The notes under the pieces were generated by a model that saw nothing but the letters and a program-made list of their open reading frames with translations, had not been told where the DNA came from and did not search any database. Made by a program: the position numbers and the translations under genes. Below are positions 10,285-18,292 of a DNA stretch of 64,000 nt, piece by piece (the stretch's first letter is position 1; each line of letters starts with the position of its first letter). This DNA comes from Leptolyngbya sp. BC1307 (GTDB taxonomy: Bacteria; Cyanobacteriota; Cyanobacteriia; Phormidesmidales; Phormidesmidaceae), in assembly GCF_002286735.1 (NCBI RefSeq), contig NZ_NRTA01000005.1, positions 124,001 through 188,000 of the forward strand, written 5' to 3'.

Positions 10285-13200
10285 ATGGAATTTCCTATGG
10301 GCCTATCGGCCACGCCCTTTTATGCGACCAGCTGGCTCGCGCAGCTCGCCGATCCGCGCATCGTTACGCCACGCGCCGTTACGCCAGAAGAAGCGGCTCT
10401 AGTTTTCTCGGGCCCGCAGTTCTTCATTGCGCTGCTCTCTGGAGTGATTTTGGCTTTTGGCTTTCAGCTACTGCTGACCAATCTTTCGATGGCGGCGGGC
10501 GTCTCTTATGTCAGCCACTCCGGCAGCTCTAGCAGCAGCTCGGGCAGCAGCTCTAGCAGCAGCTCGGGCACTGGCATTAAGAAAATCAGCGCCGCCTTTG
10601 GAGCTTGGACGCTGATTACCGTCAGCCTGGCTTTGTTCTTCGCCTGCTGGCTGGCCGTCAAGCTCAGCCTCTACAACAGTGTGACGCTCGGTGCGATTAC
10701 TGGTCTGGTGATTTGGGCTACTTATTTCACCCTGCTGGTGTGGTTTAGCTCTACTGCGGTCGGCTCTTTGGTTGGTTCAGTCGTGAAGTCGGCCACTAAC
10801 GGCTTTCAGGCACTGGTGGGCACGGCGACTGCTGCCCTCGGCGCTAAGACGGCTAGCAATCAGCTGGTCGAAACCGCTGAAGCTACTGCCGCTGCAGTTC
10901 GCCGCGAGTTTACTACCGGTTTAGACACCTCAGCGATGCAAGATCGGCTGCAGGAGTATTTGTCCGGGTTACGCTCTCCTGAAGTGGACGTAACTTCGAT
11001 TGAACAAGAATTTGAGCGACTGCTGCGCAGCTCTGAAATAGCAACTGCCAAAGATGGTGACGCGCTGCCCCCGGTTGACAGTGAAACGTTTGTTAAGCTG
11101 CTGAGCGATCGCACTAATCTTTCGCGGCAGGAGACCCGGCGCATTGCCAATCGCCTTTACAGAGTGTGGCAACGGAACACAGGCGGCAGCAATCGGCTCG
11201 ATGAAATCATGACGTTTGTGGCTTCGGCAGGAGCCGGACAGCTAGCCTCTGAGGGCTTAGGTAGCCGGTTAGACCAGCTCGTAGACGAGCTCAAGCAGCA
11301 GCGCAGCCAAGGCCAGCAGAAGGGCCAGCAGAGCCAGGGCAGCGGCGGCAATGCCTTTTCCCAGGCGATGACCCAGAGCCTGAACGCTATGATTGGCATG
11401 GTTATGGGTAAGGTAGATCTCTCTGACTTCGACGCCAACAAAGTAGTCGGGCAGATTAAGTCAACCCAGCGTGAGCTGACCGGTCAGTCCGGAATGTCTT
11501 TGCCAGAAGACGATGCCTCTGATCAAAACCTGATTAAGGCCGATGTCGAAAACTATTTACACCATGCATACATTGGCGAGCTGAAGTCGCCTGAGTTAGA
11601 AGAAAACTTTCGCAACGTTCTCTACGACGTAGAGGCAGACGAAACTGAGCTGCGAGAGCAGATTTCTGGCATTAGCCGCAAGGTCTTTATCGATACGCTG
11701 TCAGCTCGTGGTCTGCTGACTCAAACAGAAGTTCGCGATCTAGCCAATCGCCTGGAGGTTGTGCGACAGAGCGTGCTCCAAGATGTGATCACAGCAGAGA
11801 CAGTAGCCTCAGAGAAGCGAGTTCGTCAGGAATTAGAAACCTTCTTCCGCTTTACGCCGCTCAGCGAACTGTCTTCTGATATGGGTGAGCGGGCCTTTAG
11901 AGCTCTGATTGAAGATGAACCGCTCGACGCAGACTACATGCGCGATCGCTTAGGGCAAATCAGCAGTGACTACTTCCGGCAATTTTTAATTGCCCGCGAA
12001 GACATTGATGAGCCGACCAGCCACGATCTGGCCAATCGCTATCGCAGCTTGCTCGACCGCGTGATTGCCGATGCCGATAGCGTCAACCAGGCGGCTAAAG
12101 TGCGCTTGCAGCAGCAGCAGCAGTCTCTAGAAGACTATCTACGGCGCACAGACAAAGCCGAGCTTGATCCCGACGGCATTAAGCGCGATATTAGTGCGTT
12201 GCTAAATGAGCCTGACCAGGGCATTTATCAGATCCGAGGCCGGCTAGCCCGGTTTGATCGCGACACGCTGGTGAAGCTGTTAGGGCAGCGCCCCGAATTT
12301 TCTGAGCAAGAGGTTGACCATGTCGTCAGCACGATAGAAGAGAGCTGGAACGCTACTATTAGTGCGCCTAAAAAGATCAGCTTGCGGGCTCAGGCTAAGT
12401 ACGACGAAGCGACAGCAGCGATCGCCGACTACCTGCGCAGCACAGGCAAGCCAGAGCTACACCCCAATGGCATTCAGCGCGACCTGCAAAAGCTGATCGA
12501 CAACCCCAAGGTAGGGGCCAAGGCTATTCGCTATCGGCTCTCTAAAATGGACCGCGATACGCTGGTGCAACTGCTCAGCCAGCGCGACGACCTCAGCGAA
12601 GCCGAAGCCAACCAGGCCATTGACGATGTGCTCTCTAGCATTCAGGGCGTCATCAAAGCGCCCCGTCGATTGGCTCGCCGCGCCCAAACTCAGGCGCTCT
12701 CTTTCCAGAGCGCGCTAGAAGACTACCTGCGCAATACTGATAAAGAAGAGCTGAACCCGACGGGCATCAAGCGTGATCTGCAGCTGCTGCTGAACGATCC
12801 TAAGCTAGGAGTGAGCAGGTTGAGCGATCGCCTCTCGCAAATGGATGACTCCACGATGGTGGCACTATTGGCCCAGCGGCCAGACATGACCGAAGCGGAA
12901 GCCACTGATGTCGTCCGGCAGGTTACCGACGTGCGCAATCAGCTAGTCGCCCAGGTACGCAGTATTCAGCGCAGCGTCGAGTCGGTGATCAACCGGATCT
13001 TTGCCCGCATCCGCCAGTATCTGCAGTCGCTAGATCGTCCCGAGCTAGACTATTACGGCATCAAGAGCGATGTGCGCACTCTGTTTGATGATCCGCAGGC
13101 GGGCTTTTCTGCAATGCGCGATCGCCTCTCTCAGTTTGACCGCGATACGCTAGTTGCCCTGATCAGCTCTCACGACCGCGTCTCCGACGCCGATGCCAAC

Positions 13201-13425
13201 CGTGTGGTAGACCAGATAGAATCTGCTCGCGACGGCGTTCTCCACAGGGCCGAGCGCATAGAGCAGCAGATAGAAGGCCGACTCAGTAGCATCAAAGCCC
13301 AAACTCAGCAGCAGATGGAAGATACCAAGGCAGCGGCTGAAGCAGCGGCCTGGTGGCTCTTTGGTACGGCGTTAGTCTCAGCAGTCGTCGCCGCTATTGG
13401 TGGCAGTCTGGCTGTAGTTGGCTAG
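10285..13425 (+). CDS. Large membrane protein with seven diverged ~98-residue repeats, function unknown
   Basis: 1046 residues. The N-terminal part has membrane helices at about 46-68, 104-126 and 131-155, with a Ser/Gly tract between the first two (residues 79-95, from a 24-bp DNA repeat). The long soluble middle has repeats starting near residues 220, 421, 515, 616, 714, 812 and 911. The last four are clearest: YLR-x-TDK-x-ELxPxGIKRDL...LLxDP...RDRLSxxDRDTLVxLLSQR...SEAEAxxVVD. A Gln-rich linker lies at about 330-360. A final hydrophobic segment at about 1022-1044 could be a second anchor. The predicted structure is helical. I do not recognise a named family; a scaffold or envelope-tethering role is only a guess. 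A terminator follows at 13479. Confidence 0.85.
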   Translation: MEFPMGLSATPFYATSWLAQLADPRIVTPRAVTPEEAALVFSGPQFFIALLSGVILAFGFQLLLTNLSMAAGVSYVSHSGSSSSSSGSSSSSSSGTGIKKISAAFGAWTLITVSLALFFACWLAVKLSLYNSVTLGAITGLVIWATYFTLLVWFSSTAVGSLVGSVVKSATNGFQALVGTATAALGAKTASNQLVETAEATAAAVRREFTTGLDTSAMQDRLQEYLSGLRSPEVDVTSIEQEFERLLRSSEIATAKDGDALPPVDSETFVKLLSDRTNLSRQETRRIANRLYRVWQRNTGGSNRLDEIMTFVASAGAGQLASEGLGSRLDQLVDELKQQRSQGQQKGQQSQGSGGNAFSQAMTQSLNAMIGMVMGKVDLSDFDANKVVGQIKSTQRELTGQSGMSLPEDDASDQNLIKADVENYLHHAYIGELKSPELEENFRNVLYDVEADETELREQISGISRKVFIDTLSARGLLTQTEVRDLANRLEVVRQSVLQDVITAETVASEKRVRQELETFFRFTPLSELSSDMGERAFRALIEDEPLDADYMRDRLGQISSDYFRQFLIAREDIDEPTSHDLANRYRSLLDRVIADADSVNQAAKVRLQQQQQSLEDYLRRTDKAELDPDGIKRDISALLNEPDQGIYQIRGRLARFDRDTLVKLLGQRPEFSEQEVDHVVSTIEESWNATISAPKKISLRAQAKYDEATAAIADYLRSTGKPELHPNGIQRDLQKLIDNPKVGAKAIRYRLSKMDRDTLVQLLSQRDDLSEAEANQAIDDVLSSIQGVIKAPRRLARRAQTQALSFQSALEDYLRNTDKEELNPTGIKRDLQLLLNDPKLGVSRLSDRLSQMDDSTMVALLAQRPDMTEAEATDVVRQVTDVRNQLVAQVRSIQRSVESVINRIFARIRQYLQSLDRPELDYYGIKSDVRTLFDDPQAGFSAMRDRLSQFDRDTLVALISSHDRVSDADANRVVDQIESARDGVLHRAERIEQQIEGRLSSIKAQTQQQMEDTKAAAEAAAWWLFGTALVSAVVAAIGGSLAVVG
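10521..10569 (+). repeat. 24-bp direct repeat coding a Ser/Gly tract
   Basis: Two near-exact copies of a 24-bp unit (GGCAGCTCTAGCAGCAGCTC...) encode the run of Ser and Gly between the first two membrane helices of the large repeat protein. It probably arose by slippage and may vary in length between strains. Confidence 0.8.
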
Positions 13426-14170: not shown

Positions 14171-14533
14171 TTAAGGCGTGATCTTTTCAAGTGCTTCTTG
14201 AATCTCTTGTTCCACGGATTCGCCCGTTGCATTAGCAGGATTGGACATGTTTTCAGTATCTGCTGATCCTTGGACGCCGTTGAGCCCTTTTTCGGAGTTT
14301 TTCATCACGCTATCAGTACCGTTGTCGTCAGTCATAGGGCCCGAAATTGCCTGCTCAGACTTCTCCTGTACGGTATTGAGTGACTCTGAGCCTTTCGCGG
14401 GGCTAGAGCTGCTTTTGCCGAAGGCCAGGGCTGGGGCTGCGCTTGAAAATATCAATAGCGCGCAGGCAATGGCGATCGCCAGGGGCTGCAAACTAGCAAG
14501 AAAAGTAGAAAAGTAGTTACGAACGCTTTTCAT
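14171..14533 (-). CDS. Small exported protein of unknown function
   Basis: 120 residues. A signal peptide is clear: a basic start (MKSVR), a hydrophobic core at about 18-33 (LAIAIACALLIFSSAAPA) and an AxA-type cleavage site near LAFG. The mature part of about 80 residues is acidic, Ser/Asn/Glu-rich and lacks Cys, so it is probably a disordered periplasmic protein. A strong ribosome site (aggaggga) precedes the ATG. It lies beside another exported stress-type protein at 14762 on the same strand, about 230 bp away, which suggests related regulation. A function cannot be named. Confidence 0.75.
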   Translation of the reverse strand: MKSVRNYFSTFLASLQPLAIAIACALLIFSSAAPALAFGKSSSSPAKGSESLNTVQEKSEQAISGPMTDDNGTDSVMKNSEKGLNGVQGSADTENMSNPANATGESVEQEIQEALEKITP

Positions 14534-14761
14534 GGAAAATCCCTCCTGGGAATAACATAAGTTTAAATGTGTGTAAGCACAAAGATGCGAAGACAGCTAT
14601 AAAGCCAGCCGTGCTCATAAGAGCTACATACAGAGACTTCAGAACACAAAGACTTCAGACCTAGCCATGCCTACAGAAGCAGATTTAACAACGGCCGCTG
14701 GCTTTCATCAATAGAAATCCAACGGCGTTCAGTTCTGCTAAACCTTTCTTAACAGTCATGT

Positions 14762-15196
14762 CTAACGGTCGAAAAAGTCTTTTATTGACTCTACTACACC
14801 GTCAGCCTTATCTTGAATATCGTCGCCTATATCAGCGGCGGCACCCTTAGCTTTACCCACATCGCGCTTGACGCTGCCTTCGAGCTGGTCGGTAGCACCC
14901 TCTGCCTGCTTTGCTGTCCCTTCATACTGGCCGGTTACGTCGCCGACGCCGCGCTTTACCTTGCCGGTAGTCTCTTGAACTGCGCCTTCTAGCCTGTCGC
15001 TTGTTCCTTCACCAGACATGCGGTCTAGCTCTGCAGCAGCCCGAGAATTGAGCACGTCGCTGGCTGACTCAGAGCCCAAGGCGACTGCCCCAGGAACCCA
15101 AGCGCCACTCCATACGACTAGGCTCACCATCATCAGGCAAACAGCCCGAACAGCCAGCCGCTTTAATCGCTGACGATATTGGTTAATTTGAATCAT
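14762..15196 (-). CDS. Exported CsbD-like stress protein
   Basis: 144 residues. The signal peptide spans residues 1-40 (basic MIQINQYRQRLKRLAVR, core AVCLMMVSLVVWSGAWV, cleavage near AVALG). The mature chain holds CsbD-like repeats: RLEGAVQETTGKVKRGVGDV, then QYEGTAKQAEGATDQLEGSV and KRDVGKAKGAAADIGDD. CsbD proteins are normally cytosolic, so an exported version is notable. Similar cyanobacterial proteins are often annotated as low-temperature-induced; that is recollection, not evidence from the sequence. A strong ribosome site (aaggaggcg) precedes the ATG, as for the neighbouring exported protein. Confidence 0.8.
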   Translation of the reverse strand: MIQINQYRQRLKRLAVRAVCLMMVSLVVWSGAWVPGAVALGSESASDVLNSRAAAELDRMSGEGTSDRLEGAVQETTGKVKRGVGDVTGQYEGTAKQAEGATDQLEGSVKRDVGKAKGAAADIGDDIQDKADGVVESIKDFFDR

Positions 15197-17503: not shown

Positions 17504-18292
17504 ATGACTATAGAGTTAAAAGAAGACATTGCCTACATTCTGCTGAAGAAGATGGGCGATCGCCCAGAGGCAGAACGGGGCCAGCCGCTAGATCTCGAAG
17601 CTACTGATTTTGTTGGCCGCAACACTGACAAAACCGAGATCATGGCCCATCTGGACTATCTTAATCAAAAAGGATATATCAACGCCGACTTTAAAGGAGA
17701 TGCCTACGCCGATGAGGGCCCCAACCCGCTCCCAGACGCTGTTAGCGTTAAGTCAGTTGAGCTGACGCCCAGCGGACAAGACCTCTTAAAGAAAATGAGC
17801 GAAAATCCGCCCAAAGAGATGCGGTCGGGCCCGAGCACTCAGGTTGCCAGTAAAGACATGGACTTTCTTAACAAAGTCATGCTCAAGGGACACATTGGCG
17901 ACATCTACGACGCGCGCGACATTACAGAAGTGGTCTTTCGCACCATGCGCGATCTGATGACCACCGAAGCGACTCGCAACGTCGCCGAAGGGCTGCACAC
18001 AGCGGCGACGCATACCGAGAAAAAATCAGCGCAAGAAGAGGTTGCCGACCTCTGGAAAGACTCTAACCCGCTGGTGCGTTTTCTTAGCAAGGTGCGTCCT
18101 CCGCTTAACTTTGACGATGAGACGTTTCTCTTTAGAGTGAAGCAGGAAGGCGGCCTACCCAAGTCCACTGGCCCCAATACGGTCGTCAAGGCAGTCTTCG
18201 GCGCGACCAAAGACGAACTGTCATCTGAACGCATTGCCGAAATTGCAGAATTCATGCCCGGCAAAATTCGTACCCTATGGGAGGAAGCATAG
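17504..18292 (+). CDS. DUF2267 domain protein
   Basis: 262 residues. Residues 1-110 form an unassigned N-terminal part that resembles a small winged-helix-like segment (IMAHLDYLNQKGYI, LTPSGQDLLKKM). Residues 118-262 match DUF2267: DFLNKVMLKGHIGDIYDA, VVFRTMRDLMTTEATRNVAE, and LWKDSNPLVRFL with a C-terminal helical half. DUF2267 proteins are cytosolic helical proteins of unknown activity, common in stress-rich gene neighbourhoods. The ribosome site ggag precedes the ATG. A small acidic protein follows 5 bp downstream, and its own ribosome site lies inside the end of this gene, so the two are an operon and probably translationally coupled. Confidence 0.8.
   Translation: MTIELKEDIAYILLKKMGDRPEAERGQPLDLEATDFVGRNTDKTEIMAHLDYLNQKGYINADFKGDAYADEGPNPLPDAVSVKSVELTPSGQDLLKKMSENPPKEMRSGPSTQVASKDMDFLNKVMLKGHIGDIYDARDITEVVFRTMRDLMTTEATRNVAEGLHTAATHTEKKSAQEEVADLWKDSNPLVRFLSKVRPPLNFDDETFLFRVKQEGGLPKSTGPNTVVKAVFGATKDELSSERIAEIAEFMPGKIRTLWEEA

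Follow-up and report, generated by a model that had tools for sequence, protein, structure and literature searches.

The open reading frame at positions 10285-13425 on the plus strand of the window (a stretch of 64,000 nucleotides from Leptolyngbya sp. BC1307, genome size 4.9 Mb) encodes a protein of 1046 residues that combines an N-terminal membrane domain, a predicted helical array of eight diverged units and a C-terminal membrane helix. It appears to belong to an unnamed, widespread cyanobacterial family. We tentatively read it as a membrane-anchored helical rod that may space or tether cyanobacterial membranes or their complexes. We regard this role as quite possible, though short of probable; it bears on the spacing of cyanobacterial membranes and on their attachment. 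The frame is present exactly as reported in a first-pass annotation made from the letters alone. Its features are given in Table 1.

Table 1. Features of the repeat-protein gene (nucleotide positions in the window; residue numbers of the encoded protein).
Feature	Positions	Strand	Basis
Repeat-protein ORF	10285..13425	+	frame open over about 1020-1110 aa in almost all 78 orthologs
TM1, residues 44-72	10414..10500	+	hydropathy peak 46-64; model helix 44-78
Ser/Gly-rich TM1-TM2 linker, residues 79-97	10519..10575	+	sequence; low model confidence
TM2, residues 107-125	10603..10659	+	hydropathy
TM3, residues 134-152	10684..10740	+	hydropathy
Unit 1, residues 221-305	10945..11199	+	unit HMM E 1e-12
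Unit 2, residues about 306-400	11200..11484	+	only 367-400 matched here (unit HMM E 4e-4)
Gln/Gly-rich low-complexity stretch, residues about 335-360, inside unit 2	11287..11364	+	sequence
Unit 3, residues 420-505	11542..11799	+	unit HMM E 3e-9
Unit 4, residues 516-610	11830..12114	+	unit HMM E 5e-9
Unit 5, residues 613-709	12121..12411	+	unit HMM; in training set
Unit 6, residues 712-804, with PF00216-like helix pair	12418..12696	+	unit HMM; Pfam
Unit 7, residues 810-905	12712..12999	+	unit HMM
Unit 8, residues 908-1003	13006..13293	+	unit HMM
TM4, residues 1023-1046, extreme C-terminus, without tail	13351..13422	+	hydropathy

An ungapped self-comparison of the protein yielded 12 diagonals with scores from 47 to 175, whereas the best of 50 shuffles scored 46. 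Each of the 12 lies no more than about 3 residues from a multiple of 98. A unit HMM built from units 5-8 only, taken from 24 orthologs, matched the protein at eight places (Table 1). The first-pass annotation had described seven ~98-residue units starting near residues 220, 421, 515, 616, 714, 812 and 911, and had suggested self-alignment and a repeat HMM as the check. With both in hand, the significant repeats number more than four, all seven proposed units are real and their starts are right within a few residues; the count, however, is eight. The additional unit at about residues 306-400 had been missed because a Gln/Gly-rich stretch, whose length varies in an alignment of 24 orthologs, interrupts it. 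This second unit is near full length in several orthologs, among them L009 and L022 (residues 280-375 in the latter, E 6e-9). Since it is nearly complete there and survives here as the fragment 367-400, the array holds eight diverged units of ~98 residues, the second of which is a remnant in the window. Within one protein, units 5-8 are 35-48% alike, and units 1-4 share 13-28% with the other units.

One genome each of 84,980 bacterial and archaeal species was scanned, which gave 485 confirmed related stretches. Judged by record titles, the best 80 of these 485 are all cyanobacterial, and the closest relatives among the matches listed come from Phormidesmis and Leptolyngbya. When the phylum was sampled evenly, 38 of 244 genomes had a match; the spread is thus patchy and the protein is therefore not a general thylakoid component. 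Two of the 80 relatives were left out for in-frame stops. The unit HMM found eight unit slots in 76 of the remaining 78 orthologs and seven in the other two. Eight units were also counted in all members of the smaller set of 24 orthologs, which shares genomes with the set of 78 and is not independent of it. Nineteen further full-length copies gave eight unit matches (15 copies) or seven (4 copies).

A tree was built of 152 units, taken from 19 of the 56 aligned proteins, and the units in it group by their position in the array. The clades are exact for units 1-4 and 6-8 and nearly so for unit 5 (18 of 19), with clade supports of at least 0.94 except for unit 2 (0.37) and unit 5 (0.54). The array was therefore set before the sampled species diverged, and it has been neither homogenised nor resized since then. 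Constant unit number and order indicate constraint, which would fit a part whose length is critical. The first-pass annotation had asked whether the repeat number varies between species: within the ortholog group it is held at eight, and variation is found between paralogs, which carry from none to about six or seven units (see below).

A decayed copy of the gene was seen in a 3.3 Mb genome (L144:6001-6864). Only the last units and TM4 are still open in this copy, and a trace of TM2 lies just before the open part in a different frame.

The AlphaFold2 model of the full-length protein is of low confidence (mean pLDDT 60.5, pTM 0.33). Its pattern over residues 416-1046, comprising units 3-8, is one of short helices followed by a single helix of about 44-46 residues; the long helices span residues 480-523, 576-621, 674-719, 772-815 and 870-915. 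A model restricted to three units (residues 413-720) was computed from 112 alignment rows that included segments from other array positions. It reached a mean pLDDT of 81.8 and a pTM of 0.73, with values that mostly exceed 90 in the first two units and are poor at the end. In this model the long helices 68-111 and 164-209 cross the unit borders. According to the models, the units would be all-helical, with three or four short helices each, and joined by helices of ~44 residues running from unit to unit. The confident part looks like globules of short helices on long shared helices. The array may form a rod, though, given the low confidence of the full-length model, not necessarily a straight one. 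A solenoid with a period of about 98 residues had been named in the first-pass annotation as the confirming result; the period is borne out, but a closed solenoid is not seen in the model.

Fold comparisons gave no relatives above background. For the full-length model the best hit of a PDB search had a Z-score of 6.5, which is background. With the three-unit model, Foldseek found nothing in the PDB or among viral models that reached E 0.001, and the best VIA-align hits (Z 6.7; designed repeats, exocyst Sec6 and similar) score too low to be meaningful for helical repeats. The plakin repeat 5j1h_A aligned to the three-unit model with Z 4.9 and an r.m.s.d. of 5.0 over 133 residues, amid unrelated rows and no better than background.

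Hydropathy peaks at residues 46-64, 107-125, 134-152 and 1027-1046 correspond to three N-terminal helices and one C-terminal helix, in keeping with the membrane helices that had been noted at both ends. The N-terminal domain has repeat-free homologs. Unit-free relatives sharing it have lengths of 222 (L114), 211 (L120) and 224 residues (L121 and L123); similar proteins have been annotated as YrzE or PhnA-like membrane proteins. An alignment of the N-terminal domain with these unit-free relatives (hhalign 97.7%, E 1.6e-12, 109 columns) identifies TM1-TM3 as homologous, and a protein from pSymA of Sinorhizobium medicae matches the domain at 29.9% over residues 32-174 (E 7e-4). An HMM of the C-terminal end gave no match to the unit-free proteins; by eye, a hydrophobic segment is present near the C-terminus in both groups. 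Cyanobacteria and rhizobia thus have small membrane proteins that resemble the repeat protein in the TM1-TM3 domain, but whose TM3-TM4 segment is short and without units. Based on these comparisons, the array may have entered a small membrane protein of four helices between TM3 and TM4, where it would have replaced the original TM3-TM4 segment.

Paralogs of intermediate length are also found. Two proteins of 502 (L112) and 525 residues (L113) contain one clear unit and traces of more, and in longer ones (L111, L115, L116, L117 and L124) the unit slots number about six or seven, of which several are weak. The same-genome paralog (contig C12, L111:3403-5994) comprises 863 residues, contains several weaker units and has the same membrane segments at its ends. 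In two loci a unit-free gene is located ~2.3-2.5 kb downstream of the eight-unit gene (6907-7575 in L114 and 6794-7468 in L123). The gene between the two resembles one for glucose-1-phosphate adenylyltransferase.

The charges flanking the membrane segments point in two directions. Averaged over 56 orthologs of the repeat protein, the N-terminal tail carries -2.05 and the region after TM3 +1.29, and loop 1 contains about 2.4 Lys/Arg with 2.6 Asp/Glu. This pattern mildly favours a location of the units on the cytosolic side. In the unit-free relatives, by contrast, Arg and Lys residues are found in loop 2 and in the N- and C-terminal tails, which by homology favours a TM3-TM4 segment on the outside and suggests the opposite orientation. 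The topology of the array is therefore ambiguous as judged from charges. Of the earlier proposal of a helical periplasmic or cytosolic spacer anchored at both ends, the helical character and the two anchors agree with sequence and models, but the choice of the side does not follow from the charges.

The architecture had not been recognised in the first-pass annotation, and indeed no family in Pfam or NCBIfam describes it. NCBIfam gave nothing near the cut-offs, a search of the open-licence literature found no description of the family, and no enzymatic or binding domain was detected in Pfam or NCBIfam beyond a partial match to HU. A phage origin was rejected, as no match was found among phages and none of 61 pattern matches in viral contigs was confirmed. 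The one Pfam family above its cut-off is PF00216 (HU; 33.5 bits, cut-off 22.4), which also matches 24 of 24 orthologs at E 0.01 or better, the best with E 4.6e-11. One could imagine from this recurrent match, and from a weak DNA-binding match in PHROGs (E 6e-5), that HU-like helix pairs bind or organise DNA beside the membrane and that the protein tethers the nucleoid. We consider this very improbable. The match covers only positions 1-38 of the 90 profile positions, the β-arms by which HU grips DNA are absent and the models are all-helical. Furthermore, hhalign revealed no profile similarity between the units and the genome's own HU (0.2%), and the net charge is negative in seven of the eight units. 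Membership in the HU/IHF family was rejected on the partial match, the missing arm and the hhalign result. The repeat unit contains a pair of helices resembling the α1-α2 helix-turn-helix pair of HU/IHF, but HU/IHF is a complete domain with the β-arm; we read the match as a common helix pair that does not signify HU membership.

Two further Pfam candidates were rejected. DUF2267 (PF10025) scored 14.0 bits against a cut-off of 29.8, and hhalign with the window's own DUF2267 protein gave 0.3%. The apolipoprotein family PF01442 reached 10.1 bits in the repeat protein against a cut-off of 90. Matches to the latter at E 0.01 or better occur in 8 of 24 orthologs and would agree with amphipathic array helices that lie on the lipid and shape or stabilise membranes in the manner of apolipoproteins. 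Such a remodelling of the membrane surface is quite unlikely in our judgement, as the score is far below the cut-off and the units were modeled as packed multi-helix globules, with high confidence over units 3 and 4. Weak apolipoprotein matches are common for long helical proteins. A Tic110-like chloroplast translocon was also dropped as a candidate: the fold searches contained no Tic110 row and the literature search returned nothing on it, which is not proof of absence.

Based on these results we return to the spacer or tether and propose the following, conditional mechanism. A small membrane domain formed by TM1-TM3 and TM4 would carry the eight all-helical units of ~98 residues between TM3 and TM4. 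The helices of ~44 residues from unit to unit would arrange the units like beads on a continuous helical backbone. The array would then have a mechanical role: a spacer or tether whose length is fixed, keeping membranes or membrane complexes a defined distance apart or aligned with one another. With both ends anchored in a membrane, the rod would either loop back to one membrane patch or bridge two. The proposal draws on the eight units, their position-wise conservation, the helical prediction, the membrane segments at both ends, the repeat-free homologs of the N-terminal domain, the paralogs of intermediate length and the domain searches, which beyond the partial HU match detected nothing enzymatic or binding. 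Against it stand the patchy spread, the conflicting topology, the low confidence of the full-length model and the PF00216 match in 24 of 24 orthologs, which would not be expected if the role were purely mechanical.

The fixed architecture of this large, conserved family makes a ruler or tether an attractive hypothesis, and an analogy to known systems comes to mind. Spectrin repeats are helical units of about 100 residues in which a helix continues across the unit border. Spectrins and plakins thus share with the predicted repeat protein the unit size and the border-crossing helix, but spectrin has two further long helices where the repeat protein has several short ones, and the latter is anchored in the membrane at both ends. 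No spectrin family was among the Pfam matches up to E 10. A more specific version of the tether would be a bacterial spectrin analogue: eight position-specific units, inserted into a small membrane protein, that bridge the gap from one thylakoid sheet to another, or to the plasma membrane, and set the distance between the two. We think this version unlikely; if it held, a paralog with a smaller number of units would be a ruler of shorter length. By its role, AncM may be a functional analogue. This thylakoid-plasma membrane anchor of Synechocystis is needed to attach the membranes to each other, according to PMC13353191.

The genomic surroundings suggest a different role in part of the family. 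Sixty-seven loci had at least 2 kb of upstream sequence. In 28 of them, one to five tandem, divergently oriented genes for high-light-inducible proteins (HLIPs) are located within 2.5 kb upstream; by record title and genus, 26 of these 28 loci belong to Nostocales, and the others to Trichocoleus (L050) and Gloeocapsopsis (L060). HLIP arrays at 0.4-2 kb upstream of the repeat gene were observed in L050, L055, L060, L063, L106 and others, often with an exact HLR1 in between. For HLR1, the RpaB site, we used the consensus as printed in PMC13421787. Of 29 HLIP-bearing loci, 15 have an exact copy no farther than 800 bp away, and of 42 other loci 0 have one; control stretches contained them in 0 of 145 cases (HLIP-bearing loci) and 1 of 210 cases (others). 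The array might accordingly be imagined as a stress or photoprotection scaffold that docks small thylakoid proteins such as HLIPs and is made together with them under high light, and the HLIP genes and the HLR1 copies in the shared region are what speak for it.

This role, too, is unlikely. The window is among the 39 of 67 loci without an HLIP neighbour, and the HLIP-adjacent loci come mostly from one order and are not independent. None of the 42 non-HLIP loci has an HLR1 with fewer than 3 mismatches. In eight genomes with two full-length copies, HLIP genes were found at only 2 of the 16 loci. The listed exact copies of HLR1 are on the strand that faces the HLIP genes, at a distance of about 270-360 bp from the repeat gene, and therefore probably serve the HLIPs; as a promoter element of the repeat gene itself HLR1 is unsupported outside HLIP-bearing loci. 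These neighbours and sites connect the locus with regulation by high light in a single part of the tree, which does not imply a light response of the repeat gene itself. In five loci (L067, L073, L079, L106 and L108) a protein ending in an HLIP-like helix is encoded 3-7 kb downstream; it is probably a ferrochelatase with an HLIP tail.

In the window, the repeat gene is preceded by genes for a histidine kinase, a LuxR-type response regulator and a BrkB/YihY membrane protein. Downstream of it, CsbD-like, MpsC-family and DUF2267 proteins are encoded. Two small minus-strand genes at 14171-15196 have hydrophobic starts, and one of them is CsbD-like, with a score below the Pfam cut-off. The protein encoded at 17504-18292 comprises 262 residues: its N-terminal half matches no family and its C-terminal half is a DUF2267 domain (E 1.3e-24).
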